A DNA stretch of 64,000 nt from Melieria omissa (taxonomy: Eukaryota > Arthropoda > Insecta > Diptera > Ulidiidae), in contig OZ020267.1 in the NCBI GenBank assembly GCA_963971225.1, positions 69,663,718 through 69,727,717 of the forward strand. The letters run 5' to 3'. This document shows, one piece after another, positions 3,961 through 64,000 of this stretch. Position numbers and translations under genes: made by a program. The notes under the pieces are model-generated. The model was given only the letters and a program-made list of their open reading frames with translations, ran no database searches and was not told the DNA's origin. Position 1 is the first letter of the stretch. Every line of letters begins with the position of its first letter.

Positions 3961-4208
3961 TGTCCATTTGAAAAGGCTTACATGGGACTTTTTCGGGAAT
4001 CCGACAGCTGACACTCTACGCAACATAACCTAACTTAAACTACCCACAGCTTTACAATTTCGTAATTTTTGAACATTAATTTGTTATATTTTTGGTAATA
4101 AAATGTTTGGTAAGATGTGGAAATTCATTAACACATGAGGAAAAGTACTCCAGAAAAATCTGTAAAGCCTTCAGGAAAAAAATATTTTACAAACAATACA
4201 AACATTTG

Positions 4209-5401
4209 ATAAATTCATAAAAATGGATTTTTTAACAACTTAGCCAACAATCAGTAGTTATGCCCGTCGTTGCGAAGCATTGTCTTGGTTCTGGTAGGAT
4301 TCCCAATGCTGGAAATACATAATTTAAAAGGATTAAAAAGAAATAATTTAACGATTCAAAGAGAATAACAAATCGCTTCAACTATTAAAGATAATGTTGA
4401 CAGCACGGACCCCAAGTCACTGTTGGACAATGTTCCTAGTGGTGTAGGATTAAAGCTTTTTTTGGAAGCAATAAGGCAGCAAAAAATAGTGGAATGGAGG
4501 ACTTTAACACGCATCCGTCGTTAACAAAAAGTTACGAAAGAGTCGTTTGTCAAATCATCAAAAACAAACGTCAAAAAATATCAATGCAAAGTAGTAGTTA
4601 AAAAGGAAAAGGGAGGGGAAGTTTATTTTTGTTTGTGTTTTGCCAGTGAGCCAAAATCTCATTCGATTTCGTGAAAAAATAAAGGCGCAATGACAGTTTG
4701 AATTCGGAAATTGTGTCAAATTGACACAAACGACGGATGCGTGTTAAAAAAGAAAATTGTGTATATAATTTTTTTAATTTATAATTTTTTCTATAGAATT
4801 TTTTTCAACAAACCTGTTGGTCAGAGTAATATTTACAAATGAGACGAGCAACTGTTTTTCTATGCCTTTTATACGTTATTAAACTCCTTCAAAAATAGCT
4901 CAAATAAGAAAACACAAGCAAGAAACAAATTTATAGACATTGATTTTTTTGATAACTTAGCCAACAATCAGTACATAGTTATGCCCGTCGTTGCGAAGCA
5001 TTGCATTGGTTCTGGTAGGATTCCCAATGCTGGAAATACATAATTTAAAAGGATTAAAAAGAATTGATTTCACAATTTAAAGAGAATAACAAATCGCTTC
5101 AAGTATTAAAGATAATGTTGACAGCAAGGACCCCCAGTCACTGTTGGACAATGTTCCTAGTGGTGTAGGATTAAAGCTTTTTTTGGAAGTAAAAAGGCAG
5201 CAAAAAATAGTGGAATGGAGGACTTTAAAAAAGAAAATTGTGTATATAATTTTTTTTATTTATAATTTTTTCTATAGAATTTTTTTCAACAAACCTGTTG
5301 GTCAGAGAAATATTTACAAATGATACGAGCAACTGTTTTTCTATGCCTTTTATACGTTTTTAAACTAACTCAAAAATAGCTCAAATAAGAAAACACAAGC
5401 A
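4209..5401. repeat. tandem duplication, two units
   Basis: Unit 1 begins near 4209 and unit 2 near 4930; both contain the same ~470-bp sequence, including the phrase AATGCTGGAAATACATAA. Unit 1 is longer because a 236-bp MITE sits in it. Unit 2 retains the empty site (ACTTTAAAAAAG near 5222). The pair is repeated in block copy B at about 20900-22080. Confidence 0.85.
4508..4743. mobile_element. 236-bp TTAA-flanked MITE
   Basis: The ends are perfect 15-bp inverted repeats (CACGCATCCGTCGTT). Both sides carry TTAA (4504-4507 and 4744-4747). The neighbouring tandem unit has a single TTAA at the same position, which proves insertion. TTAA targeting points to piggyBac-type mobilisation; the element is non-coding. 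Confidence 0.9.
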
Positions 5402-6395
5402 ACCATTGAACAATTTTCAAAGTAGAAATTTTGAAAATCAATTTTCATTCGCTAAAAACATTTCAACGTGAATTTGTTGCATGAGAAATTCTCAATTCAA
5501 AAAATATTTTGGAACATTTTCAATAGTGCGAACTTTGACGAAGCTGAAACTGAGCATTTGCAACAGTGCCAATTTTGGTGAAGTTGTTACTGGAACTTGG
5601 AACACATTTTAATGTGAACCGGTTATAAGAAGACTTAATGAAGTTTTGGAGAACATTTTCAATAGCGTTTATTATGGTGAAGCTGACAATGGAACTAGAG
5701 ATGGTAAAACTTGAAGGATAAACTGAGATTACATTTCTTTGTCAGATTAAAAAAATCAGACCACACTCATTCTACTATTTTTTTATAGGTTATGTTTGGG
5801 TTTGGGAACCAATTGCGGAGAAGCCCATAGTTCTACTGAAAGTGGCTTGGCTTTTGGTTTTGAGTAGCCGAAGAAGGCACAGAAGAAAGAACGCGCTGAA
5901 AAACATTGAACCATTTGCTCACTCAGATAAAATTGAGAAGCAGTCAGCAAAGAGTTTACTTCTATTATCTCTGTTAAATCTGTAAGGATGCTTGAAATGT
6001 TTCAATCACTTCAAAGCTTTCGACACTGACATAGAAAGTGCAATCATAATCAATTCCAGCTCTTCTTTGTGGTGACAAGTTCTAGTATAAAAGGTACTAA
6101 GTGTTTAGTGGAAACTCCTTTAAGTGCCTTTGCAGCTTTACAGCCTTTACAGATCTTTTAAACTATAAAAAATCAGTTGTTCTTTTCCTAAATAATTTTG
6201 CCCAAATCGACCCTTAAATTGTAACCAAAAGTCGACTAATTCATTAGTCACTGCTGATTAATCAATTCTATCGAGGAGATCATTAAAAACTTAAATATTC
6301 TATAAATATATTCCATGATTACGCTGCCCTCGTCAATAATTATTTGTATTTTCTATAGAAGAAAGAAAACAATTATTAAAGCATTATTTGTATCA

Positions 6396-6946: not shown

Positions 6947-7276
6947 TTACTTCGATCCATAGAGTCGGTGAACCCCAAGAGTTTCTTTTTCATTACGCGA
7001 TATTGGTTCATTTTTCGGATGAAATTGGCTTGCATTTTCTTCGCTCTCGATTGTGTCGTCCAATTCAATGACTTCTGTTCGTTGCCCACCAGGCTGCATA
7101 GAAGCTTTGACTTCTAGGGGTTCACCGACACTAGTGTCATTTGAGCTCATGCCTTGAAATGCCTCAGCGATTGATGAATCATCCGATTCGTTGGCTCCAT
7201 CCTCCCCTGGTTCGAAATCGCTGCTTTCGTATCGAAACTTGAGACTGTGTCGATACGCTCGACACACTTGGCGCAT
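6947..7276 (-). pseudogene. copia-type pol, N-terminal stub
   Basis: The first ~98 residues match the start of the pol frame at 29617 (MRQVCRAYRHSLKF...). The frame then runs into unrelated sequence (ending GVHRLYGSK) where the duplicated block is fused. All reverse transcriptase and RNase H sequence is missing. Confidence 0.8.
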
Positions 7277-8291
7277 GCTTATCTCCCTGGTTATCCTGGC
7301 TGTTGTGACTACTCACATCGAAAGCCATGCCGTGGGGCTTCGGCGGAACCTGACCGTGGGCATACTTCCCCATTTTTGCCCTAGTCAGGACACCAGCTAG
7401 TCCCATGCGCTGGTCCTCCGCATCGACTTTAATGTCATCGCACTTTTGCTGATTATACTTCATAACGGATACCGAATCTTCAAAGGATATATCATCAACA
7501 GAACCCTCAGTCATCGACTTGCTTATTTCTGTGTCTGCAGCATCGTCAGCAGCGCCAACAACGAGGTGATTGCGCGCATACCAATCCTCCACCTTGCGTT
7601 TCGCAAAATCATCACGATCATCATTCAGCGAAATGTTTCTGCTGTTTGTGTTGTCGCGGCGCGTAACCGAATAGGGGGAGACGCGATTTGTGCCATACTT
7701 CAAATTACCGCTGTTTGACAGCCAGGGCGGTATCTTTGTGGCCTTCAACGTCGTGCATACCTTGCGGAAATCTGATCCCGCATCCACCGCCAGATTCATG
7801 GCCTTTAGATATTCACTCACTCGGAATCTCTCGCCGGTTTGGTTCATAACTATCAACTCACCCCAAGTCTGTTCGTTGCTTTCAAACTCTTCCACGAATT
7901 CAATAGAGTCAGCATCACTTAACAGCTTGTCTAGGGTGTCGCACGCACGCTGGCACCATTGCTCTTTGGCGGTCATCACTGCACGACTCTCCATGAAATC
8001 AAACTCCTTCTCGCCTGGCAACACTCCAGCCAATCCGCCGCAGCGCACATGGTCCACTGGCCGTGCCAACTTTTCCGGCAAGCGAAAAATATGCTCAGGA
8101 GTCGTCTGAAAAGGGAATCCGTGGTCTAGTGCCCACATTATATATTCACCGCTTTGCTGCATGTTTCTGCTAAAATTCGCTTTTTCATCCACACGCGCCC
8201 TTATCAATTTATTCCAGCCGAGAAAGTTCACAGCCACAACTGCGTTAACCGACGGTCGTATGGAATAAGCAGCAGACCTGATGCAGCCCAT
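7179..8291 (-). CDS. unknown 370-residue ORF inside copia-type element (copy A)
   Basis: The ATG lies within the presumed primer-binding site, two bases inside the LTR edge region; the open frame runs through the LTR, but the internal ATG is the more sensible start. The protein has an acidic, Ser/Asp-rich C-terminal half and a short internal repeat (GGLAGVLPGEKEF versus MGLAGVLTRAKMG). I see no gag zinc knuckle, no DSG protease motif and no integrase HHCC or DDE pattern, although copia elements normally encode all of these here. Identity unknown: a rearranged gag-like region or captured host sequence. Nearly identical in copy C (29520-30632). Confidence 0.6.
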   Translation of the reverse strand: MGCIRSAAYSIRPSVNAVVAVNFLGWNKLIRARVDEKANFSRNMQQSGEYIMWALDHGFPFQTTPEHIFRLPEKLARPVDHVRCGGLAGVLPGEKEFDFMESRAVMTAKEQWCQRACDTLDKLLSDADSIEFVEEFESNEQTWGELIVMNQTGERFRVSEYLKAMNLAVDAGSDFRKVCTTLKATKIPPWLSNSGNLKYGTNRVSPYSVTRRDNTNSRNISLNDDRDDFAKRKVEDWYARNHLVVGAADDAADTEISKSMTEGSVDDISFEDSVSVMKYNQQKCDDIKVDAEDQRMGLAGVLTRAKMGKYAHGQVPPKPHGMAFDVSSHNSQDNQGDKHAPSVSSVSTQSQVSIRKQRFRTRGGWSQRIG

Positions 8292-8295
8292 AACC

Positions 8296-8425
8296 TGATG
8301 CAGATGTTGGTTGATAAAATAAAAAGCACGTCTTACGTCTTGTTGTGTTAAAGTGTCAAGGAAGAAGAAGAAAATTTTATTCACCATATTGTGTGACATT
8401 CGCAATGAATGCGCTCAATGTAACA
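8296..8425 (-). repeat. copia-type 5' LTR (130 bp, copy A)
   Basis: Read on the minus strand it begins TGTTACATTG and ends CATCTGCATCA, i.e. TG...CA. By eye it is identical to the LTR at 30637-30766. It is followed inside by GGTTATGGGCTGC, which resembles the copia primer site complementary to an internal stretch of initiator tRNA-Met. Confidence 0.85.
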
Positions 8426-10737: not shown

Positions 10738-11465
10738 TGCGCCTATGAAACCGGTAATTATTTTTGAAAAAACACGTTTATTGTGAGGAAATGATTACAA
10801 TTTTATTCTTCAAAGTAATGGCCATCGCTAGCTACACATTTTTCCCATCTCTCAGGCAATTTATGGATGCCTCGCCAAAAAAATGTTTCGTCTTTTGCCT
10901 GAAACCAATCATCGATCCATTTTTGGGCTTCTGCGTGAGAATTGAAGCGCTGTTCCGTTAATGCGTGACCCATCGATGCGAACATGTGATAATCCGAAGG
11001 CGCCAAGTCTGGTGAGTAAGCCGCATGAGCAAGAGCTTCCCAGTTGCACGATGCAACCAATTCTTTGGTGGCTCTAGTGCGGTGTGGTGGTGCGTTGTCA
11101 TCGAGGAAAATCACTTTGTGTTGCCTGGCTTCATATTCTGGGCGTTTTTGGCGTACAGCACGGTTCAAATCGGCCAATTGTTGTTGGTAACGTTCACCGT
11201 TAACCGTTTCACCAGGTTTTAGAAGGTGTTTTTCTTCAAATGGTAACACAAAATTAACTGTGTCCGCAAATCGTAATTTGTAGGCACGTAATCCGACATT
11301 TTCCGGAGCGTCAAACAATGCGTTGTTGGATGAAACTTGACAAATTGTGAACTGAATATTGTTGACATATGACAGAAGAACTAAACATGACATTTGGTAC
11401 GGTTCCGAAGTTTATAAATATTCGGCTATTTACCGCTAGATGTCGTTACCGGTTTCATAGGCGCA
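10738..11465 (-). mobile_element. mariner, internally deleted (728 bp)
   Basis: Inverted ends begin TGCGCCTATGAAACCGGTAA and are flanked by TA on each side (10736-10737, 11466-11467). Full-length mariners are about 1.3 kb, so ~550 bp is missing. Different lineage from its neighbour at 11557. Confidence 0.9.
10803..11393 (-). pseudogene. mariner transposase, central/N-terminal deletion
   Basis: The C-terminal ~130 residues are good mariner: LLKPGETVNGERYQQQL, FLDDNAPPH (second catalytic Asp), YSPDLAPSDYHMF (third Asp) and LPERWEKCVASDGHYF. The helix-turn-helix region and the MDETW block with the first Asp are gone, replaced by a short jumbled N terminus, so it cannot be catalytic. The motif set resembles the rosa/capitata-type mariners of fruit flies. 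Confidence 0.85.
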
Positions 11466-11556
11466 TACCTGGTATTATAAAATATTATAACGTTAAATGA
11501 AATTCCAATTGACTGAAAATAAATTTTTTTTTAATTATGATCACTATTTTTAGCTA

Positions 11557-12848
11557 ACACTTCGTTCAATAATGTGTGTGACTAACTAATTAAAACACAT
11601 TTTTTTGCCAAAATTCGTTTTTATTCATCAACATAGTCCCCTTTTAGGGAGATACAATCATTCCAACGCTTTTCCAATCTTTCGATACCGCCTTTGTAGA
11701 ACGATTTTTCTTTGCCTTCAAAATAGGCGTTAGTTTCGGCGATTACTTCATCATTTGAGCCAAATCTCTTACCACGGAGCATCTTTTTGAGGTCTGCGAA
11801 GAGCCAGTAGTCGCTGGGGGCCAAATCTGGAGAATACGGGGGATGAGGAAGCAATTCGAAGCCCAATTCATGCATTTTTGCCATCGTTTTCATCGACTTG
11901 TGACACGGTGCATTGTCTTGGTGAAACAACACTTTTTTCTTCTTCATATGGGGCCGCTTAATCGCGATTTCTTCTTTCAAACGTTCCAACAACGCTATAT
12001 AATAGTCGCTATTGATTGTTTTCCCTTTCTCAAGATAGTCGATGAATATTATTCCGTGCACATCCCAAAATACTGACGCCATAACCTTGCCAGCCGATGT
12101 TTGTGCCTTTGGACGCTTTGGGCGGCTGTCACCGGTTGCATGCCACTCAGCAGACTGCCGATTTGACTCTGGAGTGAAATGGTGGATCCATGTTTCATCC
12201 ATTGTGATGTACCGACGCAAAAACTCCGACTTGTTGCGCGTAAACATGTCCAAACAGCTCTTTGAATCATCGATTCGTTGTTGTTTTTGCTCCGGTGTGA
12301 GCAAACGCGGCACCCATTTCGAAAACACCTTTTTCATAACCAAATGTTCTTGTATTATGGTGTGTACACTGCCTGCTGATATCTTTAGAATGTCAGCAAT
12401 CTCCCCCACTTTCACTTTACGGTCGGACATAATGATTTTCAGTGTTTTTTCAACGTTTTCCGGAATAACAGCGTCATTTGGCCGTCCAGTAGATGGAATG
12501 TCATCGGTGTCTGTACGACCACGTTTGAATTCGGCATACCAATAACAAATGGTTCTCTTTGATGGAGCAGAGTCCGAATAATGTTTTTCAAGCCATTCCT
12601 GGCATTGAACAGTATTTTTTTTCATTAAAAAACAATGATAAATCAGCACACGGAATTGCTTTGAATTCATTTTTTTTTTAAACTCAAAAGTAGTGTCACT
12701 TAAAGCACTGTAACTTGTAAACTAATGGTCGGATTGACATATAATTTTGACATTAAGCCTAAAAAGGTTCACAATTTCGAAAAAAATATTGATTTAGTAT
12801 TAGTGCCGCCATCTATGTGTCAGTCACACACATTATTGAACGAAGTGT
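11557..12848 (-). mobile_element. complete mariner (irritans-type), 1292 bp
   Basis: The terminal inverted repeats are about 30 bp with one mismatch and start ACACTTCGTTCAATAATGTG. TA flanks both ends (11555-11556 and 12849-12850). It encloses a full transposase frame and sits inside the hAT element. Confidence 0.95.
11621..12670 (-). CDS. mariner transposase, full length (349 aa)
   Basis: Cut-and-paste transposase of the Tc1/mariner superfamily, acting in the nucleus on its own TA-flanked inverted repeats. The order is complete: N-terminal paired HTH region (~1-115), WVPRLLT linker (~119-125), MDETW with Asp158, HQDNAPCH with Asp252, and YSPDLAPSDYWLF with Asp287, giving the D,D34D spacing. 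It ends EKRWNDCISLKGDYVDE. Length and motifs match the irritans (Himar1-like) subfamily. The start is the first Met and no stop or frameshift is visible, so the gene looks functional by sequence. Its ends are intact, so autonomous mobility is plausible. Confidence 0.95.
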   Translation of the reverse strand: MNSKQFRVLIYHCFLMKKNTVQCQEWLEKHYSDSAPSKRTICYWYAEFKRGRTDTDDIPSTGRPNDAVIPENVEKTLKIIMSDRKVKVGEIADILKISAGSVHTIIQEHLVMKKVFSKWVPRLLTPEQKQQRIDDSKSCLDMFTRNKSEFLRRYITMDETWIHHFTPESNRQSAEWHATGDSRPKRPKAQTSAGKVMASVFWDVHGIIFIDYLEKGKTINSDYYIALLERLKEEIAIKRPHMKKKKVLFHQDNAPCHKSMKTMAKMHELGFELLPHPPYSPDLAPSDYWLFADLKKMLRGKRFGSNDEVIAETNAYFEGKEKSFYKGGIERLEKRWNDCISLKGDYVDE

Positions 12849-23653: not shown

Positions 23654-24426
23654 AAGAGTTTCTTTTTCATTACGCGATATTGGTTCATTTTTCGTGGGGC
23701 TTCGGCGGAACCTGACCGTGGGCATACTTCCCCATTTTTGCCCTAGTCAGGACACCAGCTAGTCCCATGCGCTGGTCCTCCGCATCGACTTTAATGTCAT
23801 CGCACTTTTGCTGATTATACTTCATAACGGATACCGAATCTTCAAAGGATATATCATCAACAGAACCCTCAATCATCGACTTGCTTATTTCTGTGTCTGC
23901 AGCATCGTCAGCAGCGCCAACAACGAGGTGATTGCGCGCATACCAATCCTCCACCTTGCGTTTCGCAAAATCATCACGATCATCATTCAGCGAAATGTTT
24001 CTGCTGTTTGTGTTGTCGCGGCGCGTAACCGAATAGGGGGAGACGCGATTTGTGCCATACTTCAAATTACCGCTGTTTGACAGCCAGGGCGGTATCTTTG
24101 TGGCCTTCAACGTCGTGCATACCTTGCGGAAATCTGATCCCGCATCCACCGCCAGATTCATGGCCTTTAGATATTCACTCACTCGGAATCTCTCGCCGGT
24201 TTGGTTCATAACTATCAACTCACCCCAAGTCTGTTCGTTGCTTTCAAACTCTTCTACGAATTCAATAGAGTCAGCATCACTTAACAGCTTGTCTAGGGTG
24301 TCGCACGCACGCTGGCACCATTGCTCTTTGGCGGTCATCACTGCACGACTCTCCATGAAATCAAACTCCTTCTCGCCTGGCAACACTCCAGCCAATCCGC
24401 CGCAGCGCACATGGTCCACTGGCCGT
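23654..24426 (-). pseudogene. copia-type fragment in copy B, internally deleted
   Basis: Begins with the pol N-terminal junction, then jumps about 310 bp (relative to 7018-7331) into the unknown ORF. It continues open from 24419 to 23685 (residues corresponding to DHVRCGGLAGVLPGEKEF through GQVPPKPH), then is cut off at 24426. No LTR. The break coincides with a 2-base CG microhomology. Confidence 0.8.
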
Positions 24427-24878
24427 AACTCTCTTCGATTTTTGTCATTTCACTCTTAATGCATCCAACATATTTTTTCTTTTTTAACGCCCTCTGTCGT
24501 AATTCTTTTCATATTTTTATCATTTCACTCCTAATGCATCCAACATATTTGCCGATGTATTTTTTTTAAGTCTCTCTACGCCGTTTGTCGTCCTTTTTTA
24601 TATTTGTTTTCTCCTGGCTCTGGAAATTTTGTTTAATGGCCGATTCCTTATTTGCACCAACGTCCTGGACTACAATATCTTCTTCCTAGCCTTCGTAGCC
24701 TCAACACGTTCAATCTCGTTGAAATCCTTTATCCTGTAGCAGAATCATCTCAATGCTCTCAACAATCCTTAAAATCCTTTAACATTTGGCCTGGTATTTT
24801 GTCTCAGTCTGCTTCAAGCCACCATTGATTGTTAGGTTAGGTTAGGTTATTGATTGTTACTTCGATCCATATGGAATT
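24427..24878. repeat. partial third copy of the duplicated block's right end
   Basis: Repeats 23191-23637 (minisatellite units, TTAGG tract, GATCCAT end). After it, 24879-25440 is unique AT-rich sequence with no gene. Confidence 0.85.
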
Positions 24879-26001: not shown

Positions 26002-26677
26002 TTAACCCATCGATACTCCCAACTCCTTCCATAAAGCTTGGTTGCTGCCCCCCATGTCCGAAACTACAGCTACCACTGGGTACCCTGCTTCACAAAGCTT
26101 TTCGATAATGCTCTCCAAAATGGTTTTTGTCATTTTGCAATCGAAAGCATAAAAAACCGGCTGCTTCCACGATGCCTTTAGTCCACGAGCTATGACCATT
26201 TGTACGTACTTGCTTGGCTTCCTTACGCTATCGGTCAAGGGATCGTGTTCGTAGACCGATGCTACACGCATCTCATCAAACGCAAGTACGCACAGCCGGT
26301 CTGTAACTTCCGCATTTTTCATAGCTTCGATCACAAAACACAAAATTTCTTCACGGAACTGCAGCTTTTGGGCCAATTTAGAAATCGTAGATTCGCAGGG
26401 TAGAGGAAATCCCTTGCGGTAGAGGTGGTTGTACGCTCTGGGGCCGGCAGAGTGTAGGGTAATCGCCCACGAAATATCTTCGTGGGACCAATGCAGTTTA
26501 CTACCTGGTCGTTGCATCCTTCGAAGTTGCCCTTCGGTAAAGATAGAGGCAACGCATTTCTTAAATGCGCCAAGTTCAGCAACTTGCATCCTCAATTTGG
26601 CGTTCTCAGTCTCAAGTAATCTTAACTGCTTTCGAAGCTGCGCATTTTCCCGTTCCAGTGTTGACTCAGAGTAAGCA
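26002..26677 (-). pseudogene. P-element-like (THAP9-type) transposase, central exon, truncated
   Basis: A splice acceptor (CTTACAG) at 26678-26684 opens the exon with a leucine-zipper-like coiled coil (ERENAQLRKQLRLLETENAK). Then come an HTH-like region (HWSHEDISWAITLHSAGPRA) and the first part of the RNase-H-fold catalytic domain: LAFDEM (first Asp) and VVAVVSDMGGSNQALWKEL (second Asp). In P-element transposase the third acidic residue and the GTP-binding insertion come later; here the frame stops at SMG and the element ends soon after, at CAGTGTCGCACGCAGGGGG (25972). The THAP exon at 30821-31141 is its likely 5' partner, separated by the copia insertion. Confidence 0.8.
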
Positions 26678-27078
26678 CTGTAAGAACGAGCATTATGGTT
26701 TTTCATAGCAAAAAATATATTTTTTTTATATATACTTGCAGCAGAGTAGCTTAAGTTATCTTTGTTTGTCTTTAGTCCTAAGAATAGAATAGTTGGTAAC
26801 GCTAATTGAGCTAAAGCTCGTTTGTATACACATGGATAGAAGCTTTCGTTCCAAAGCTATAAAAGCTCTATCCTGCGTGAGTATGAAATAGCGATCCTTA
26901 CGAGTTTCCGAGCCACTTTGCGATTGGCTCCTGCTTGAAAGGGTACGTTAGGAAATCTTTCAAATAGAATTGAATTGTAGCAGTCGTGGACAACGATGGC
27001 TGGCCGACTGAGAAATTTGTAGTCGCAAGCAATCGTGGGCGGCGAAGGAAGGCCGATTGTGCGCATGCGTAGGAAGTT

Positions 27079-27679: not shown

Positions 27680-29617
27680 CTATTCACTTATGCCGAAACA
27701 CTTTAAGAAAGTCAACATATTTGGCAGTGCAACTGCTTTAGTTAGGATATCTGCTGGCATATTTTTAGTTGACACCTGATTAATGCTCACATGTTTTTCT
27801 TTGGCATTCTGGACAATGTACTTTACTTTAACATCAATATGTTTTGTTCTAGCAGAATAATTATTGTTTAGTGCTAAATCTACCGCGCCGCGATTGTCAC
27901 AGTATACCGAGATCATTCGTGGCGCAATTGGTATCAGTTCAGCTCTTAAATACTTCAGCCATGTAGCCTCTTGAATCGTCTCAGTCATGGCCATGAATTC
28001 GGCTTCTGTCGTTGATAGCGCAATTGTTTGCTGTCGTCTTGTAGGCCACGATATTGCGCCACCTTGCATGATGAATACGAAGCCAGTAGTCGAATTGCGT
28101 TTATCAAGATCATTGGCCCAATCAGAGTCGCCAAAGCCCATCAAATCATCAGATGACTTTGTGTATGTGATTCCTCTGTTAAGAGTGCCTTTCAGGTATC
28201 GAAATACGCGCTTCAACGCCACCCAATGAGCTTTGCCGGGATTTTCGCTATACCTGCTGAGTAAATTTATAGCGAAGTTAATGTCGGGACGAGTTACCTG
28301 AGCAGCAAATAGCAAGCTGCCGATTGCTTCCCTGTACGGAATGTTTCGCATTTCGTACCGCTCCTCATCAGTCTTCGGACACATTTCTTCGCTGATTTTT
28401 TGGTTCAAGTCCAAAGGAGTCGACGTCGGATTCGCGCTGCTCATTCCGAAGCGTTCGATGAGCTCGCTGATGTACTGTGATTGATCGATGGTGATGGAGC
28501 CAATTGACTTGTTTCGAGTGACTCGAACACCGAGAAGTAATGACGTTTCACCGAGATCCTTCATTTTAAAATGCTTGTTCAGTTTGCCCTTCAATTGCAT
28601 TTCGAGCTCCGAATTATTCGATAAAATGAGAATATCGTCGACCCATGTGGCAACAATGAGCATTTGTCCATTTTCTATTGAATAGAATATACACTGATCA
28701 GCTTGTGAACGCTTAAGTCCGAAGCTCAACAAGACTTTGGTTAACGCGATGTTCCACAAACGACCGGATTGTTTCAGTCCATAGATTGATTTGACCAGTC
28801 GACAATATCGATTTGAACCGTCGTCAAACAGTTCCGGCTGTTCCATGTAAATTTCGGTGTCCAGTTTTTCGTGCAGAAACGCAGTCACTACATCCATTTG
28901 AGTGACTCGTAGATCAAACTGCACTGCCATGGCTAGCAAAAATCTGATTGAGGTGTACCGCACCACAGGTGAAAAGGTTTCGTTGTAGTCAACGCCGGGA
29001 ACTTGTGTGAAGCCCTTCGCAACGAGTCTGGCTTTGTACCTCACGGTTTTTCCAGCCGAATTGCGTTTTGTTTTGAACACCCATTTGCATTTAACAGGCT
29101 TTTTTCCTTTTGGCAACTCAGCAAGCAACCAAGTTCCATTTTTTGCAAGCGAATCCATTTCTTCACGCATTGCATTTTTCCAATACTCACTTGCATCGCT
29201 CGACAAGGCTTGCTTGACTGTTGTTGGATCGCTCTCAGTGAAAACAGCACAAGCATAATTTGGTTTTGGCTTGTTGGCTCTTCGACTTGATGGAGCACGC
29301 GCTACTGTTTCACTCTCAAGAGTTTCTTTTTCATTACGCGATATTGGTTCATTTTTCGGATGAAATTGGCTTGCATTTTCTTCGCTCTCGATTGTGTCGT
29401 CCAATTCAATGACTTCTGTTCGTTGCCCACCAGGCTGCATAGAAGCTTTGACTTCTAGGGGTTCACCGACACTAGTGTCATTTGAGCTCATGCCTTGAAA
29501 TGCCTCAGCGATTGATGAATCATCCGATTCGTTGGCTCCATCCTCCCCTGGTTCGAAATCGCTGCTTTCGTATCGAAACTTGAGACTGTGTCGATACGCT
29601 CGACACACTTGGCGCAT
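27680..29617 (-). CDS. copia-type pol: reverse transcriptase and RNase H (645 aa)
   Basis: Copies element RNA into DNA in virus-like particles. Residues 1-~125 are an acidic linker, normally between integrase and RT. RT (RVT_2) spans ~130-380: GTWLLAELPKGKKPVKCKWV, ARLVAKGFTQVPGVDYNETF, TQMDVVTAFLHEKL (first Asp), KSIYGLKQ, and WVDDILIL (the YVDD box with Trp for Tyr). RNase H spans ~490-625: DSDWANDLDKRNSTTGF, ALSTTEAEFMAM, VYCDNRGAV and KHIDVKVKYI. The frame is intact to the stop. It overlaps the upstream unknown ORF by ~98 bp in another frame, so a frameshift or separate translation would be needed. Integrase is absent, so this copy is unlikely to be autonomous. Confidence 0.9.
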   Translation of the reverse strand: MRQVCRAYRHSLKFRYESSDFEPGEDGANESDDSSIAEAFQGMSSNDTSVGEPLEVKASMQPGGQRTEVIELDDTIESEENASQFHPKNEPISRNEKETLESETVARAPSSRRANKPKPNYACAVFTESDPTTVKQALSSDASEYWKNAMREEMDSLAKNGTWLLAELPKGKKPVKCKWVFKTKRNSAGKTVRYKARLVAKGFTQVPGVDYNETFSPVVRYTSIRFLLAMAVQFDLRVTQMDVVTAFLHEKLDTEIYMEQPELFDDGSNRYCRLVKSIYGLKQSGRLWNIALTKVLLSFGLKRSQADQCIFYSIENGQMLIVATWVDDILILSNNSELEMQLKGKLNKHFKMKDLGETSLLLGVRVTRNKSIGSITIDQSQYISELIERFGMSSANPTSTPLDLNQKISEEMCPKTDEERYEMRNIPYREAIGSLLFAAQVTRPDINFAINLLSRYSENPGKAHWVALKRVFRYLKGTLNRGITYTKSSDDLMGFGDSDWANDLDKRNSTTGFVFIMQGGAISWPTRRQQTIALSTTEAEFMAMTETIQEATWLKYLRAELIPIAPRMISVYCDNRGAVDLALNNNYSARTKHIDVKVKYIVQNAKEKHVSINQVSTKNMPADILTKAVALPNMLTFLKCFGISE

Positions 29618-30632
29618 GCTTATCTCCCTGGTTATCCTGGCTGTTGTGACTACTCACATCAAAAGCCATGCCGTGGGGCTTCGGCGGAACCTGACCGTGG
29701 GCATACTTCCCCATTTTTGCCCTAGTCAGGACACCAGCTAGTCCCATGCGCTGGTCCTCCGCATCGACTTTAATGTCATCGCACTTTTGCTGATTATACT
29801 TCATAACGGATACCGAATCTTCAAAGGATATATCATCAACAGAACCCTCAGTCATCGACTTGCTTATTTCTGTGTCTGCAGCATCGTCAGCAGCGCCAAC
29901 AACGAGGTGATTGCGCGCATACCAATCCTCCACCTTGCGTTTCGCAAAATCATCACGATCATCATTCAGCGAAATGTTTCTGCTGTTTGTGTTGTCGCGG
30001 CGCGTAACCGAATAGGGGGAGACGCGATTTGTGCCATACTTCAAATTACCGCTGTTTGACAGCCAGGGCGGTATCTTTGTGGCCTTCAACGTCGTGCATA
30101 CCTTGCGGAAATCTGATCCCGCATCCACCGCCAGATTCATGGCCTTTAGATATTCACTCACTCGGAATCTCTCGCCGGTTTGGTTCATAACTATCAACTC
30201 ACCCCAAGTCTGTTCGTTGCTTTCAAACTCTTCCACGAATTCAATAGAGTCAGCATCACTTAACAGCTTGTCTAGGGTGTCGCACGCACGCTGGCACCAT
30301 TGCTCTTTGGCGGTCATCACTGCACGACTCTCCATGAAATCAAACTCCTTCTCGCCTGGCAACACTCCAGCCAATCCGCCGCAGCGCACATGGTCCACTG
30401 GCCGTGCCAACTTTTCCGGCAAGCGAAAAATATGCTCAGGAGTCGTCTGAAAAGGGAATCCGTGGTCTAGTGCCCACATTATATATTCACCGCTTTGCTG
30501 CATGTTTCTGCTAAAATTCGCTTTTTCATCCACACGCGCCCTTATCAATTTATTCCAGCCGAGAAAGTTCACAGCCACAACTGCGTTAACCGACGGTCGT
30601 ATGGAATAAGCAGCAGACCTGATGCAGCCCAT
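29520..30632 (-). CDS. unknown 370-residue ORF replacing gag/protease/integrase (copy C)
   Basis: Starts at the ATG inside the primer-type site (MGCIRSAAYSIRPSV) and runs into the pol frame. The predicted protein is soluble with no membrane segment. It is mixed polar in the first ~200 residues (MWALDHGFPFQTTPEHIF; WCQRACDTLDKLL), then acidic and Ser-rich (DDISFEDSVSVM), then basic (SIRKQRFRTRGG). No CCHC knuckle, DSG protease or integrase signature. It has stayed open and nearly unchanged in three copies, but those copies are recent duplicates, so this does not prove selection. Candidates: a highly diverged gag, or host sequence transduced into the element. Confidence 0.6.
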   Translation of the reverse strand: MGCIRSAAYSIRPSVNAVVAVNFLGWNKLIRARVDEKANFSRNMQQSGEYIMWALDHGFPFQTTPEHIFRLPEKLARPVDHVRCGGLAGVLPGEKEFDFMESRAVMTAKEQWCQRACDTLDKLLSDADSIEFVEEFESNEQTWGELIVMNQTGERFRVSEYLKAMNLAVDAGSDFRKVCTTLKATKIPPWLSNSGNLKYGTNRVSPYSVTRRDNTNSRNISLNDDRDDFAKRKVEDWYARNHLVVGAADDAADTEISKSMTEGSVDDISFEDSVSVMKYNQQKCDDIKVDAEDQRMGLAGVLTRAKMGKYAHGQVPPKPHGMAFDVSSHNSQDNQGDKHAPSVSSVSTQSQVSIRKQRFRTRGGWSQRIG

Positions 30633-30636
30633 AACC

Positions 30637-30766
30637 TGATGCAGATGTTGGTTGATAAAATAAAAAGCACGTCTTACGTCTTGTTGTGTTAAAGTGTCAA
30701 GGAAGAAGAAGAAAATTTTATTCACCATATTGTGTGACATTCGCAATGAATGCGCTCAATGTAACA
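30637..30766 (-). repeat. copia-type 5' LTR (copy C)
   Basis: 130 bp, ends TGTTAC and TGCATCA on the minus strand, followed inside by the primer-type sequence at 30621-30636. AAGTT flank outside. Confidence 0.9.
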
Positions 30767-57616: not shown

Positions 57617-58261
57617 ATTCAGAAGTGGGATGCCGGGGAATTGTTACGCGAATTCTTCGGTAAAGAACTAAACGAATAGCCTGCCCCGCAATGTGAAAAA
57701 AAAAACGATTAAAACGCGATATATAGTGTGATCTTGTAATTCACGACGGACGCAGCAGCCTCCAGCGGCACCACCGTCGCTACTACAGCAGGTGCAGGAG
57801 AGTGTGAAAAGTGAATTCGTGGAAGTGCGAAAGGAATTGTGGAGGTTTGCATACACACGAGCAGTTGTATGTGAAACTTCAATTCGGTTCCGATGATTAA
57901 ACTACGTACGATATAAACGTGAACGATTCGCGTACACGTTGTGTGAGACTCCCATGGGCATACGATTTCCCTTGTAAGTGAGTGAGACTCCCGTAGACAT
58001 ACGCATTGTCCTTGGAATCGGCAAAGCCTACTTGAATCGCCGTTAAGATTTACAGTTAGGCAACGCTGTCGAACATTTTCGAGTCAGTTGCTGTACTTTT
58101 CAAATTGTCGCGTTGTCGCTGTAGCATAGCGGTTGCGTGTCGTGTGTCGTTATGTGCGTATACGCGTAAGCGTGAAACGAAAATTTGAAAGTAACAACGT
58201 ACGTTACTCGTTAGTTCGGAATTCAAACGAGCGAAAAGTGAAAGTAAAACAAACGTTAAAA

Positions 58262-58605
58262 ATGTCGTTACGGAACAGAAAAATCAGCGAATTGCGTGAA
58301 CAATGCAAACGGGCCGGGTTGCCGACGTCGGGCAGCAAGAATCTGTTAATTGAACGGTTATATGAACAAAGAAACGATGAAACAATGAATTCCACGATGG
58401 ACGAATCAACAGTGACTCAACGTATCTCCATGTTGGAGAAGACAATTTTAGAACTACGCGCGCAGCTGAACCAAAATTCGCAACCACATTTCGAACCTTT
58501 ATTAACATCGTCGCCAGTACCGACGGTGTATACTACGGCAGCGATGCAAGCGCCCGTCGCCGCAACGGTTACCGGTGCAACCGACATTTGCGACTCAATA
58601 CAGTG
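58262..58605 (+). pseudogene. gag 5' part with SAP domain
   Basis: The start at ATG 58262 (MSLRNRKISELREQCKRAGL) is preferred over upstream frame-open codons because the SAP motif begins there. Residues ~3-37 form a SAP-type helix-extension-helix (ISELREQCKRAGLPTSGSKN, LLIERL), a DNA/chromatin-binding fold. A coiled-coil segment (MLEKTILELRAQLNQNS) and a Pro/Thr-rich stretch follow. Interrupted at 58605 by the Transib. Removing the Transib and one TSD would not restore frame with the downstream part, so gag also carries a 1-base indel. Confidence 0.75.
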
Positions 58606-58634
58606 CACAGTGATTCGTTCCATAGACAAAATTC
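58606..58634 (+). other. Transib left terminal repeat with RSS-like layout
   Basis: Heptamer CACAGTG (58606-58612), 13-base spacer, then ACAAAATTC (58626-58634). A second A-rich nonamer-like stretch lies at a 23-base distance (58636-58644). Confidence 0.85.
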
Positions 58635-59574
58635 AAAAAATTTATGGTCTCAGAATTTAACGATTTTGATGTCATTCGAAAGGTAAAACTCCAACTAAGA
58701 AAACCCCAAAAAATCTGTGCAAAAAATTAATTAGCGTGGCTGCAAAAGCTGCTCAAAGTTGAAACTTTTTTCACGAAAAAATGCAAACACATATTTTCTG
58801 TTTTTTTGTGTATTGAGTAAAAAAAATCGTAAAAATACATGTTTAACAAGAACTTTCTGAAACTTTCAACATAGATTAAAAATTGGTGTGGGCATTTTCG
58901 CTTTTAATGTTTTCTCAAAATTTGCCAAGCTAAGGCTTTTACTTCACTTTTAATTTAAAATATTTTTTAAAATTAAAAATCTGAAAATTGGCAAAATTTA
59001 GAGGAAAATATCTAAAAAGTATGTGAAAGTATGTTCCTGGATTTTGGCTTATTTTAAGAAGCACTCTTTCTTTGTCGGAAAATGTATTCACATCCTCCGA
59101 TATCTTCCGATCTCAGAAAATAATTCAATTTGAAAAGTGGTCTAAACACCTATTTTTCGACAAAAAATGTATTTAAATTCAGTAGCCTAAAAGTATGCAA
59201 AAAAATCATTCTTCACATATTTTCCCTTTTAACCCATTCAAATATTTTGTCATCGATATGAATTGTGAAGGAACTACTTAATTATACGTTTACTTTTACT
59301 TCCTTGAAGACAAATAGAATGTACCTAAAAATATATATATATATGAGTGAAATGTGATTAGCGACTCATCTCATAGTTTTTAAAGTGTTCAGTGTAAATT
59401 TTTTAGGTATGAAACTGAAAATGAAAAACAAAATTTCGGTTAGGGTTTTAGGAGGTTAAAAAATATAACACCCTAAAAGTAGGTAACGGAAAAAGTCGTG
59501 AATTTTGAACAATTTGTTTGTTTGGCAATGTCAGAATTCATTCGCAAAAGAGCAGTTTGGTGAAATCGTTTGAA
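58635..59574 (+). promoter_or_regulatory. Transib 5' untranslated/promoter region
   Basis: Non-coding AT-rich region between the left end and the predicted ATG. No clear TATA or initiator assigned; a short AT run (TATATATATATG) lies near 59334. Confidence 0.45.
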
Positions 59575-62284
59575 ATGGCTGAAATAATTACAAATCGCGA
59601 ATTAGCTTTTTGCTGGATATCGGCAGCTCCTTCGGAGAAATATTGCGCAGTGTTAAACTTTTTAAAGACTAAACTTAATGTTAATAGTTTTGGTGCATTT
59701 AAATTTATTACAAAAGCGAAACTATTTAATGTAGAAATGAAGAACAAATGGAAAAAGTGCAGCTACAAAAAAGACATTTTAGAAAAAAGATATTCAAATT
59801 GGCTAACGTGGAATGTGTATTTTGAAGATGATTCGCAAAACGTAAGTTGTATCGTTAATGTTTTTGAATAAGATAAAGTTGTTGTAATTTGTTGACAAAA
59901 AACATAACAACTGAGGTCAAGAAACAGGTGATTTCTTAACAATCAACAGAAAACATACTAATTATGGGAATACCCTCTTTCATTTTGATTCCTTCTTGTG
60001 TTTTTTGTTGCTTTTTGCTTGGTATTGCTTTCAAAATATTGTTCACTATTTAGAGGTTTGCAATTTTCATTTGGCGAAGTTTTATTTCATTTTTTTTAGA
60101 AATTCTAGATTTTCCTACATTGTACTTCACTGCTAGTTGGCGAAGTGACTTTCCTCGACTTAATTTGTTTAGAATTTTTCCATCGTTAAGATTGTACGTG
60201 CTTTCTTAACTATAAGTGCCATTATTAATATTTGATTTAGTTTACACAGTTAGATTAAAATTTAATAATTAGAAAAAAGCAGATAAAATTAGTGTCCGGA
60301 TTTTTGAGGTAAATAAAATGTGTGGTGTCCGGATTACAGAGTCAACAATAGAAAGCAATAGGGTGTCCGGATTACCGCGTTGGCCGTATTAGCGAGTATC
60401 CGCATTATCGAGATTGTACTGTATATAAAAAATTTATCCACATCTACTGTTAGACAAATTAAACAAATCATATGCATTGTTATAAAAAGTTGTATTAGCA
60501 CTAAAGTCTATCTGAGTGGTAATATTTACAAACATTATAGCAACAGAGTACTAGCACGAAAGCTGGAAGACGTAAAACAGAGTTTCAAGGATCGTCGAAG
60601 AAAACAAAGTTGCGAAGAGTAGCCACGCTACTGGAACACGAAGGAGATGAGCTCAGTTTTACAGCTGAAAAGAAGAAATGCGACCGTAGAAATCATGACT
60701 GCTTATCACCCGCCGATGCCTTGTCACTCTGTTTGGACTTAGATCTTTCGGATGAAAAATACACTGTTTTGCGAAATGCTGTGAATAAAGTTCACGAAAA
60801 CTGTTTTCCGACATTATATGCATTGCGAAATTTAAGGAAGTCATTAGTCCCAGAAGTGTCAGCTACAGAATGCTCAGCACAAGTAGAATTACAAGAACTA
60901 CTGAGAACAACGGCAAGCAGTGTGCTAAAGCTTTCCGACAAAGAAAATCTGCCTCAAAAAACCACCCTCATATGCAAATGGGGTATGGATGGCAGCTCTG
61001 GCCATAGCCAGTATAAACAGAAATTCTCCTCCGAAGAGCAGTCGGATGAGTTTATGTTTCTTGTGGCAATGGTTCCGATGAAGTTAGTTTCCACTTATAT
61101 ACACATTATAACATTTCTATTTAGTTATATTTCCGTTATTCATTTGTCAAAGGCTTGTTGATTCAGCAACAAAAATGGATGTGTGGACAAACAAAAGACC
61201 TTGCTCAACATTGTTTTGTAGGCCAGTAAAAATCATAATGGCAAAAGAAAATAAAAGTGTTATTACTCACGAAAACGACATAATGAAAAGCAATATAGCA
61301 AAGTTGCAGCCTGATATATTTGAGGATCATGGGAATGCAGTGGAGGTCTCCTACGTGATGCACTGCACCATGATTGACGGCTCAGTTGCTAATGCTTTGA
61401 CGGACACGAGAGCATGCAGTAAGTGTTTCATTTGCAAGGCCAACCCAACAGAAATGAATCGCGTTGATTTGGTCAAAACTCCAAATGTTAACAATTACGA
61501 GTATGGGTTATCTACTCTTCACTGTTGGATTCGTTTTTTTGAGTGCTGCCTTCACATTTCATATCGACTGCAATTCAAATGCTGGCAAGTTCGTGCCGAA
61601 AATAAAGCCATATATTTGGAAAACAAGAAGCGAATTCAAAACGAATTCAGAGTCAAAATGGGTTTATTGGTAGATCACGTCAAGCCAAGCGGCGGCAACA
61701 TGAGCGACGGAAATACCGCTCGCAAATTCTTCGCAAATATTGAGGTTGCAGCTGAAATAACTGGCCTCAATAAAAACTTACTCTTTAATTTTTCAATAAT
61801 ATTGAGAGTCCTGTCGTGCTGCAGAAACATTATTACGGACCGCTTTTCGGAGTTGCTGGACAAGACCAGAAATGACTACATACAACACTACAGCTGGTAC
61901 AATATGCCAAGTTCTGTGCATAAAGTATTGGTACACGGATGCGACGTAATAAAATACTTTAATATTCCTATAGGTAATACATATAGATGTCAAATGACTT
62001 ATTCCCTTCATTGTAAATATTTAATTTTTCAAGGAAGCTTATCTGAAGAAGCATTAGAAGCTCGTCACAAAGACATACGCAACACGCGCTTACATCATAC
62101 ACGAAAAACATCTCGAGTGGCCACAAATACGGACCTACTTAACCATTTGCTAACTTCTTCGGATCCCCTGTTATCATCCAGAAGAAAAATCCAAACAAAA
62201 ACCGGGTCGCCAATGGATTCAACCGTGAATTATTACATTCATGATGGCGATAAGGATAATAATTGCAATCACTTTGCTGGATAG
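59575..62284 (+). CDS. Transib transposase, RAG1-like, three exons (644 aa)
   Basis: DDE cut-and-paste transposase of the superfamily from which the RAG1 recombinase core derives. Exons by splice signals and phase: 59575-59841 (donor GTAAGT), 60547-61082 (acceptor CAACAG, donor GTTAGT), 61153-62284 (acceptor CAAAG). Joined they give 645 codons with stop and no interruption. Residues ~1-89 are a lysine-rich N terminus (NKWKKCSYKK; YSNWLTWNVYF); ~96-125 basic (AGRRKTEFQGSSKKTKLRR). The catalytic core has KWGMDGSSGHSQYKQ (Asp237), MIDGSVANALTD (Asp343) with the Cys cluster ACSKCFICKA (~355-362), and SEEALEARHKD at 565-575 (catalytic Glu). The length fits known Transib proteins (~650). Exon 1 is predicted from splice logic and is less certain than exons 2 and 3. 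Confidence 0.9.
60055..60420 (-). pseudogene. pogo/Tigger-like remnant in Transib intron 1
   Basis: The minus-strand translation of 60060-60210 gives KILNKLSRGKSLRQLAVKYN then VGKSRISKK, the CENP-B/pogo-type HTH. The right part (GTCCGGATTA repeated at 60295-60375, GATAATGCGGATACTCGC on the minus strand) and the edge CAGTACAATCTCGATAATG (complement near 60400-60420) look like a pogo/Tigger end. The left end is missing. It lies between the exon 1 donor and exon 2 acceptor. Confidence 0.65.
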
Positions 62285-63045
62285 AGTGCCAACCGGCCCT
62301 ACTCCACACCTGACGGTAACGGACTAGACTGACAAAAAACTAACGATTGAACTATAATGCTCTAGACGGTCTCCCGACGAAATACTTAGCGGAAGTTTAT
62401 GGAACAACTATCCGTCGGACAAGAGGAGATGTTTAGCGGGTTGAAGTCTCGCACTGACTTGGGCTTTCGATGCTTTTACTCCTCATAAAAAACAAAAAAA
62501 AAAAAACAAAATCTAAACCAGTTTTAAGTTATCTACACACACTCTTGTAATCGGCAAATATTTATACTTTCATTATTTTACTCATAGCGTTTACTATAAA
62601 ATATGTATTGTAAGCCAAAACAGCTTCAATCATAGGTGTACGTTTATTTCTCTTTGTAACCAAAATAAATTATGAAACATGAAAAACAAAAATAAATTTT
62701 ATTCATCCCTAAAAGTATGCAATCAGCATGAAAAATTGAGAAAACTGCAAAAATGCAAAACAACATCTATTATAATCGTTTTTATTGCAATACCAGAGGG
62801 TCCTAAGACAATTTCTGTTACTCTTTGGAATAATCAATGATGACGTTATCGATTAAATGTAAAATCTGAAAAATCTAGCCAACACACTTGGTACTACAGC
62901 TCTCCAAAAACGACGAAATTTGAAAATTCAAGACCCTGGCATTGCTAAACTACAAAAGTTTAAGAAAAAAAAAAATGGAGATTTCAGTTCAGCTGACCAT
63001 GATTAACTAGTATACCAAATTTTATGAAGAACAGACCACTCCTTC
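62285..63045 (+). other. Transib 3' untranslated region
   Basis: Non-coding; an A-rich tract near 62488-62512 and several AATAAA signals (62664, 62691). No second gene. Confidence 0.6.
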
Positions 63046-63084
63046 TAATTTTGTCCCGCGGTTGTATGGAGTCGAATCACTGTG
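63046..63084 (-). other. Transib right terminal repeat with RSS-like layout
   Basis: Read inward from the end: CACAGTG, 23-base spacer (63055-63077), then ACAAAATTA (63046-63054). The shared CTCCAT/TTCCAT word aligns the two ends, so the spacer difference is a 10-base insertion or deletion inside the spacer. Confidence 0.85.
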
Positions 63085-63088
63085 CAGT

Positions 63089-64000
63089 GTACCAAATACA
63101 AGACCGAGTCAATATACGCAATTTCCACACACCAATACGCAAGCGCAACCAGTTGCGCTTCAGTTTCAAAATTATATGAGTGCTCCGATTCCGGGTGCCA
63201 ACATGTTTGTGCCGAACGTCAATAATCACGCGAGTGCTCCGTATGTTGTTAATTCAATGCCGACCGTTTTTCCGAATAATCCGTCATCGTGCAATAGCAA
63301 TATTCGCGATATAATCGAGCTATTACCAGCATTTGATCCATCGTCGGATAAATCGCTGAACCCGCGGCAATTCATCAAACGGGTAGAATTGCTGAAAAAT
63401 GCATACGGTTGGAACGAGGGCGCCATTATGTTCGCTATACAACAAAAAATGAGTGGCTCAGCCAAACTGTGGATTGATTCGCAAGATACGGTGTTTTTAA
63501 CGTGGCAGCAATTTGTGAATCAGTTCTTAGCCGACTTTCCGTGTTTTGAGAACGAAGCCGACATACATTTAAAGTTAGCGCGGTCTAAACGACAACCAAA
63601 CGAATCGCCGGTTGAGTATGTGTATCGAATGCAAGCGTTGGGTGCGAAGGGTGGACTACCCGAATCGAGTATTATACGCCATATTGTGAACGGTATAAAC
63701 GATTTCGATTTAAAACGGAAAATATCAAACGAATACGACCGATGCCAGGATTTACTGCGCGATATCCTGAGTTATAGTGCGTACAACGATATTAGACCTG
63801 TACTAAATAAACCGAAAGCGCCAATTCAAAACCACGTAACGTCAAACGAAACCCCAGCAAACGGTGAAACCCGCGCACAACGAAAACCGGTGCCACGAGA
63901 AAATCTGAAATGTTTTAATTGCTCTAAGCCTGGACATTTTTCGGTTAACTGTCCAGAGCCGCAGAAGAAACCGCGATGCAACAAGTGTCAGCGTACGACA
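63089..64000 (+). pseudogene. gag 3' part: capsid-like domain and zinc knuckles, open at window end
   Basis: About 300 codons open to the edge. A Pro/Gln/Asn-rich linker leads to a Retrotrans_gag-type core (PRQFIKRVELLKNAYGWNEG, WQQFVNQFLADFPCFE, ESPVEYVYRMQALGAKGGLP). A CCHC knuckle follows (CFNCSKPGHFSVNC) and a second begins (CNKCQ). Gag would form the particle and bind element RNA. Because it lacks its own start downstream of the Transib, this copy is disabled. Confidence 0.85.

Follow-up and report, generated by a model that had tools for sequence, protein, structure and literature searches.

A Transib transposon family with asymmetric ends and signs of recent movement in the fly Melieria omissa

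Introduction

Transib transposons form a superfamily related to RAG1, the enzyme that cuts and rejoins antibody genes. The stretch of DNA analysed here as a whole (hereafter the window; 64,000 nucleotides of the Melieria omissa assembly GCA_963971225.1, contig OZ020267.1, positions 69,663,718 to 69,727,717 of the forward strand) contains, at 58606-63084, a 4479-bp Transib element which an initial annotation of the letters alone had described as apparently intact. The locus raises the question whether this element is a transposon that moved recently or a well-kept fossil, and whether its two unlike ends could act as a pair of the 12/23 type, the arrangement of recombination signal sequences (RSSs) in which one short and one long spacer are needed for function. 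One gene for a RAG1-like DDE transposase, RSS-like ends and a 5-bp target site duplication (TSD) at a CCANTGG-type target are seen in the sequence. Because the protein, the ends, the length of the TSD and the target motif agree, the element is structurally an intact Transib, and it is very probably a complete, recently mobile transposon of the cut-and-paste kind.

Results

Near-identical copies at different sites

The genome search gave 63 matches, and as 40 of 3772 first-look candidates were scored, the copy numbers reported here are lower bounds. At least 15 full-length copies were found, which differ pairwise by substitutions at 0.02 to 1.40% of positions (mean 0.80%). Thus, further copies at more than 98% identity, which the initial annotation had proposed to look for, do exist, and in place of the single decayed copy that would have spoken against its reading there are 15 or more of full length, seven of them undamaged. 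Perfect 5-bp TSDs together with distinct flanks were present in 12 of the 15, distributed over four contigs (C1 to C4). The nearest copy to that of the window (C1) is L010 (C2); the two stand at different sites, encode the same protein and are told apart by one substitution and two deletions of a single A, both in A-runs. The early suggestion of recent activity is now well supported by such near-identical copies with perfect TSDs at different sites.

The window copy is free of stops, frameshifts and lost splice dinucleotides. Seven of the 15 full-length copies (L009-L013, L018 and L019) keep the frame in full together with all six splice dinucleotides. The intron-1 donor is lost in L020, the frame is open with two codons missing in L014 and L015 and with 14 codons missing in L021 and L022, and L016, L017 and L023 are truncated or frame-shifted. 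L021 and L022 have both of their deletions in common and occupy separate sites with perfect TSDs, which indicates movement of an already damaged copy, in the simplest case in trans. Three copies, L019, L020 and L023 (G000 C1, 76.4-76.8 Mb), lie within 370 kb of one another and have one flank pair without a matching TSD; they represent one insertion in a duplicated segment, the outer flanks of which may have been joined by recombination.

Boundaries, termini and target site

The two ends of the element are identical over 12 bp (CACAGTGATTCG), and the heptamer CACAGTG is intact on both sides of all 25 elements compared (15 full-length and 10 short), with right-end bases 8-12 altered in L011 and L019. 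One right-end heptamer change occurs in L028, which is not among these 25. The heptamers CACAGTG/CACTGTG, the 12-bp identical ends and the 5-bp TSD had been placed correctly to the base by the initial annotation.

The target was analysed at 34 loci (L009-L045 minus L019, L020 and L023, whose TSDs do not match). Both ends are present at 26 of these loci and the TSD is perfect at 24, those of L025 and L037 being off by one base. The reconstructed empty sites read TYRNNC-CANTG-GNNYRA and are palindromic about CCANTGG. Inside the TSD, C stands at 21 of 24 sites, A at 20, T at 20 and G at 23; the outer C is present at 13 of the 24 and the outer G at 12. The family shows the target preference published for two Drosophila Transibs, CCANTGG being the motif given for hopper and transib2, along with a 5-bp TSD (PMC3276498, in excerpt).

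The window copy was said to interrupt a young-looking retrotransposon gag. The host sequence is indeed a retrotransposon gag, with a SAP domain in the upstream open reading frame (ORF; E 8e-10) and a zinc-knuckle pattern recognised by eye in the downstream ORF at 63011-64000, but it is not a clean young gene. After joining about 200 nt of each flank, the ORFs 58130-58660 and 63011-64000 are in different frames, so that the gag was interrupted independently of the Transib. As the gag copy is not open across the insertion site, its use as evidence of youth was dropped.

Transposase gene and protein

The preferred gene model consists of four exons and three GT-AG introns and encodes a stop-free protein of 626 residues (Table 1), which matches HzTransib from Helicoverpa zea with E 5.6e-105. 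The initial annotation had given three exons and 644 residues. Exon 3 read on to the stop yields 646 residues, including a 20-residue insert beside the catalytic glutamate without counterpart in HzTransib or in any of the 12 aligned homologs, and the three-exon model was rejected in favour of the better-fitting four exons. Splicing of intron 3 (GT 61974 - AG 62033) produces PIGSLSEEALEARHKD, the HzTransib counterpart of which is PIGSLSEEASEARNKD. This intron, absent from the initial annotation, would easily be run through in a reading by eye, since its length is a multiple of three and it has no stop. P0056, a relative outside the 12-homolog alignment, carries at the same position an insert resembling a read-through intron. 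The junction motif was matched in 82 of 120 homologs, P0056 being one of the 38 misses; the support for the junction comes from the 12-homolog alignment.

All three acidic catalytic blocks noticed at the outset are present, with corrected positions: Asp237 and Asp343 are D239 and D345, and the glutamate is E552, the third E of SEEALEARHKD. The glutamates of SEE were rejected as catalytic, as HzTransib E436 aligns to E552 instead. No catalytic residue is missing from the alignment, which had been named as a possible objection, and the triad D239/D345/E552 is invariant in 13 of 13 sequences compared.

Among the best 120 of 390 homologs, the best-scoring ones are 47-50% identical over most of the protein, and the highest local identity, 54% over 52% of the protein, belongs to P0056. 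Pfam assigned no family to the transposase at E 0.001, and some of the listed relatives carry PF26100. The scan of viral contigs found no relative. Inside 58606-63084 there is no second stop-to-stop ORF of at least 120 amino acids beyond the transposase exons, smaller exons being outside this search. The N-terminal part contains a stretch like the nonamer-binding domain (NBD), the family motif of which aligns weakly to GGRPR of RAG1. In the structural alignment the N-terminal 130 residues of the P0004 model had no partner in nearly all rows, which does not disprove kinship with RAG1.

Asymmetric ends

The left end reads CACAGTG-N13-ACAAAATTC and the right end CACAGTG-N23-ACAAAATTA, and CACAGTG is also the consensus heptamer of the RSS (PMC8289069, in excerpt). 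The left spacer is 13 bp in 25 of 25 elements, the right one 23 bp in 24 of 25 and 22 bp in L011. The left block matches the consensus nonamer ACAAAAACC at seven of nine positions and the right block at six of nine, each being the top score of its side among spacers of 5 to 40. Matches as good at 12±1 and 23±1, in either arrangement, occurred in 0.0018 of Markov pairs of the same composition, and the exact ACAAAA core at both positions in 2e-5 of them, in a test picked after the sequence was seen. The 9-mer GACAAAATT is common to both ends and absent from the rest of the element on both strands (0.025 for any shared 9-mer by chance). Both kinds of ends, symmetric and asymmetric, occur in Transib Subgroup II (PMC9435367). 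Judged from its sequence, the 13/23 pattern is a further instance of the asymmetry reported for a few other Transibs, here in a recently mobile family.

Short internally deleted derivatives

Besides the full-length copies, at least 10 short ones were found, 874-957 bp in length, nine of which measure 947-957 bp. In them, element positions 1-595 are fused to positions 4084-4479 at the 15-nt repeat CCTAAAAGTATGCAA, and L039 carries an additional deletion. The short copies are 4.9% apart among themselves and 8.8-9.7% from the window element; they look older than the full-length burst and have the same ends. The majority base of the ten short copies differs from the window element at 81 positions over 957 bp. 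The outermost 50 bp of either end contain none of these (chance 1.3e-4); the outermost 100 bp contain one on the left and three on the right, where 17 would be expected for the two ends together (chance 5.6e-5). The terminal constraint is thus wider than heptamer and nonamer, and the nonamer is not singled out.

Two short copies, L037 (G000 C2:84150253-84151204) and L040 (G000 C1:95670692-95671642), lie at the same place in one repeat in opposite orientation, owing either to two insertions at a favoured target or to inversion of the element in place. Also observed was L046 (G000 C1:48669500-48679000, 5250-6296), a diverged fragment of a sibling Transib subfamily with 86% identity over 1088 bp, in which a recognisable end was looked for and none was found.

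Table 1. Features of the Transib element, in window coordinates.
Feature	Position	Strand	Remark
TSD, left copy, CAGTG	58601..58605	.	Fits CANTG target type
Left heptamer CACAGTG	58606..58612	+	Opens 12-bp end 58606-58617; left 12 bp identical in 25/25 elements
Left nonamer-like block ACAAAATTC	58626..58634	+	13 bp from heptamer; kept in 24/25 elements, one change in L039
15-nt repeat CCTAAAAGTATGCAA, left copy	59186..59200	+	Junction of short deletion derivatives
Exon 1 (ATG to DDSQN)	59575..59841	+	N-terminus aligns with homolog P0001
Intron 1, 699 nt	59842..60540	+	GT-AG in 14/15 full-length copies; donor GA in L020
Exon 2	60541..61082	+	Catalytic D239 (codon 60988-60990); aligns with HzTransib D126 (residue numbers, PMC6941560)
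NBD-like stretch, AT-hook-like	60565..60633	+	GRRK here; GRP in most relatives
Intron 2, 70 nt	61083..61152	+	GT-AG in 15/15 copies
Exon 3	61153..61973	+	Catalytic D345 (codon 61376-61378); HzTransib alignment
Intron 3, 60 nt, in frame, stop-free	61974..62033	+	GT-AG in 15/15 copies; homolog alignments
Exon 4	62034..62284	+	Catalytic E552 (codon 62057-62059); stop TAG; aligns with HzTransib E436 (numbering, PMC6941560)
15-nt repeat CCTAAAAGTATGCAA, right copy	62708..62722	+	Junction of short deletion derivatives
Right nonamer-like block ACAAAATTA	63046..63054	-	23 bp inside heptamer; kept in 25/25 elements
Right heptamer CACAGTG	63078..63084	-	Opens 12-bp end 63073-63084; same in 25/25 elements
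TSD, right copy, CAGTG	63085..63089	.	Exact repeat of left copy

Other mobile elements in the window

Three pieces of one copia-type retrotransposon, with translations near-identical by eye, are located on the minus strand at 6947-8414, 23685-24449 and 27680-30755. RVT_2 was detected in 27680-29653 (E 4e-73), and among the best 120 of 2253 relatives the identity of this reverse transcriptase reaches at most 57%. Two adjoining mariner-like ORFs occupy 10803-12721 (minus), namely a 366-residue open frame with Mos1-type helix-turn-helix (HTH) and DDE domains at 11621-12721 and a frame that is mariner-like by eye at 10803-11411. In a further open frame at 26002-26856 (minus), the N-terminal domain of a TNP-like RNase H was detected at E 5e-15, along with a P-element HTH that scored below threshold.

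Discussion

From what is described for HzTransib and RAG, the transposase would bind both ends, nick 5' of each heptamer, form hairpins on the flanking DNA and insert the released 3' ends into a new target at a distance of 5 bp from each other. Cut-and-paste transposition with flank hairpins is reported second-hand for HzTransib in PMC6941560. Internally deleted copies would be mobilised in trans. More tentatively, the N-terminal segment might lie on the ACAAAATT block, with the 10-bp difference between the spacers guiding the pairing of left and right.

The copies might be alike because gene conversion or segment duplication kept a fossil family uniform without recent transposition. The three copies at one duplicated site fit this account, as do the eight of 15 copies whose coding or splice changes shorten, break or possibly block the protein relative to the window copy, but the 12 copies with different flanks and perfect TSDs on four contigs, and the near-identity of the window copy and L010 at different sites, make it very unlikely. 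Several points nevertheless weigh against a recently mobile, intact transposon. As three copies share one duplicated site, the 15 copies do not equal 15 insertions; the likeness of the copies could also be explained by gene conversion; the coding changes that segregate among 13 of the 15 copies (L020 and L023 excluded), 15 of them synonymous against 34 nonsynonymous (ratio 0.59), give weak evidence of selection on the protein; and the N-terminal GRP, found in 96 of 103 homologs, is replaced by GRR in all 15 copies. The family could also be mobile and the window copy not a source, having been mobilised in trans by another copy. This is a serious though lesser possibility, as movement of damaged copies is seen in L021/L022 and the short deletion family, but no damage is found in the window copy, L010 encodes an identical protein, and GRR is no peculiarity of the window copy, being shared by the other 14 full-length copies. 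The window copy may itself make active transposase. A RAG-like transposon of the ProtoRAG type with a RAG2-like partner would likewise have a RAG1-like protein, CACAGTG ends and a 5-bp TSD; it is extremely improbable here, as all ORFs of at least 120 amino acids in the element are transposase exons, the convergent RAG1-like and RAG2-like genes of ProtoRAG were not found among ORFs of this size, and the closest sequence and structure are those of HzTransib, not of BbRAG1L.

How the ends are read is a separate question. We lean slightly to the explanation that the nonamer-like blocks are chance A-rich sequence within a longer, ordinary conserved terminal region and that reading by the enzyme is confined to roughly the first dozen bases. 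Both ends are rich in A+T, conservation against the short family extends over the entire outer 100 bp of each side (four of the 81 differences), the consensus is matched at only seven and six of nine positions, the GRP motif is altered, and in HzTransib the ends are symmetric, the nonamer being slight or absent (PMC8289069, in excerpt). Against such an explanation stand the low chance of the joint matches at 12±1 and 23±1 (0.0018), the presence of GACAAAATT at both ends and nowhere else in the element, and the similar 12/23 asymmetry published for Transib5 and Anopheles Transib2/N1-N3 (PMC8355894, in excerpt). Alternatively, a living, RAG2-free Transib could read a genuine 12/23-type pair, the NBD-like segment binding ACAAAATT at both ends while the 10-bp difference, close to one turn of the helix, forces left-right pairing; we consider this rather unlikely. 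That the asymmetric 13/23 ends help the enzyme to pair one left with one right end may be the case, but with much less certainty. If the ends were a genuine 12/23-type pair, the 12/23 rule would already have been at work in the transposon stage, without RAG2, and would be open to dissection in a mobile element with natural variants (the 22-bp right spacer of L011 and the family-wide GRR for GRP). Whether asymmetric ends and the reading of nonamers came before RAG2 and V(D)J recombination, an order still argued in published models (PMC8355894, in excerpt; PMC9435367), could be tested directly in a family that combines recent mobility and undamaged copies with RSS-like asymmetric ends and an N-terminus of the NBD-like kind. 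Otherwise, this is an ordinary, well-preserved Transib family.

Comparison with known systems

HzTransib (PDB 6PQN/6PQX), which is biochemically active, is the only Transib listed among the solved structures searched, and its chain lacks the N-terminal part. The catalytic core of the present protein is alike over residues 144-594, including the triad and the PIGSLSEEA motif, and the model of a 47%-identical relative superposes on HzTransib at 1.9 A over 470 residues. In this comparison with HzTransib alone, the core comprises 451 against 454 residues with no large insertion, as would be expected for Subgroup II. Transib Subgroup II is said, in Tao 2022, to be without the RAG2-binding alpha11-alpha12 region of the zinc domain. 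The present protein is about 120 residues longer before the shared core, including the NBD-like stretch; the HzTransib chain, the alignment of which begins at its residue 21, offers no partner for the residues before 130 of the 47%-identical relative. The heptamer of HzTransib is also of the CAC type, whereas its ends are symmetric and not 13/23 as found here (PMC8289069, in excerpt).

Compared with vertebrate RAG1 and its RSSs, the element has no RAG2-like ORF (at least 120 amino acids), is mobile, matches the nonamer at 7/9 and 6/9 positions and has one spacer of 13 instead of 12; its closest match, in sequence as in structure, is with HzTransib and not with BbRAG1L. D. melanogaster Transib5 and Anopheles gambiae Transib2/N1-N3 likewise possess heptamer-nonamer ends of the 12/23 type, a likeness by description only (PMC8355894, in excerpt), whereas near-identical copies of full length number at least 15 in the present family, seven of them undamaged. 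Drosophila hopper and transib2 share the 5-bp TSD and the CCANTGG target and are likened to it by these traits, not by sequence (PMC3276498, in excerpt). None of the literature titles listed describes this element; they cover few subscription papers, and Repbase and Dfam, outside their scope, may list the family. Drosophila Transib1, at 3030 bp a different element by length, is mobile today and spread through D. melanogaster in 2013-2016 (PMC12230796, in excerpt), and a live Transib in a fly is therefore not new in itself. The M. omissa element is accordingly filed as a new family of a known kind.

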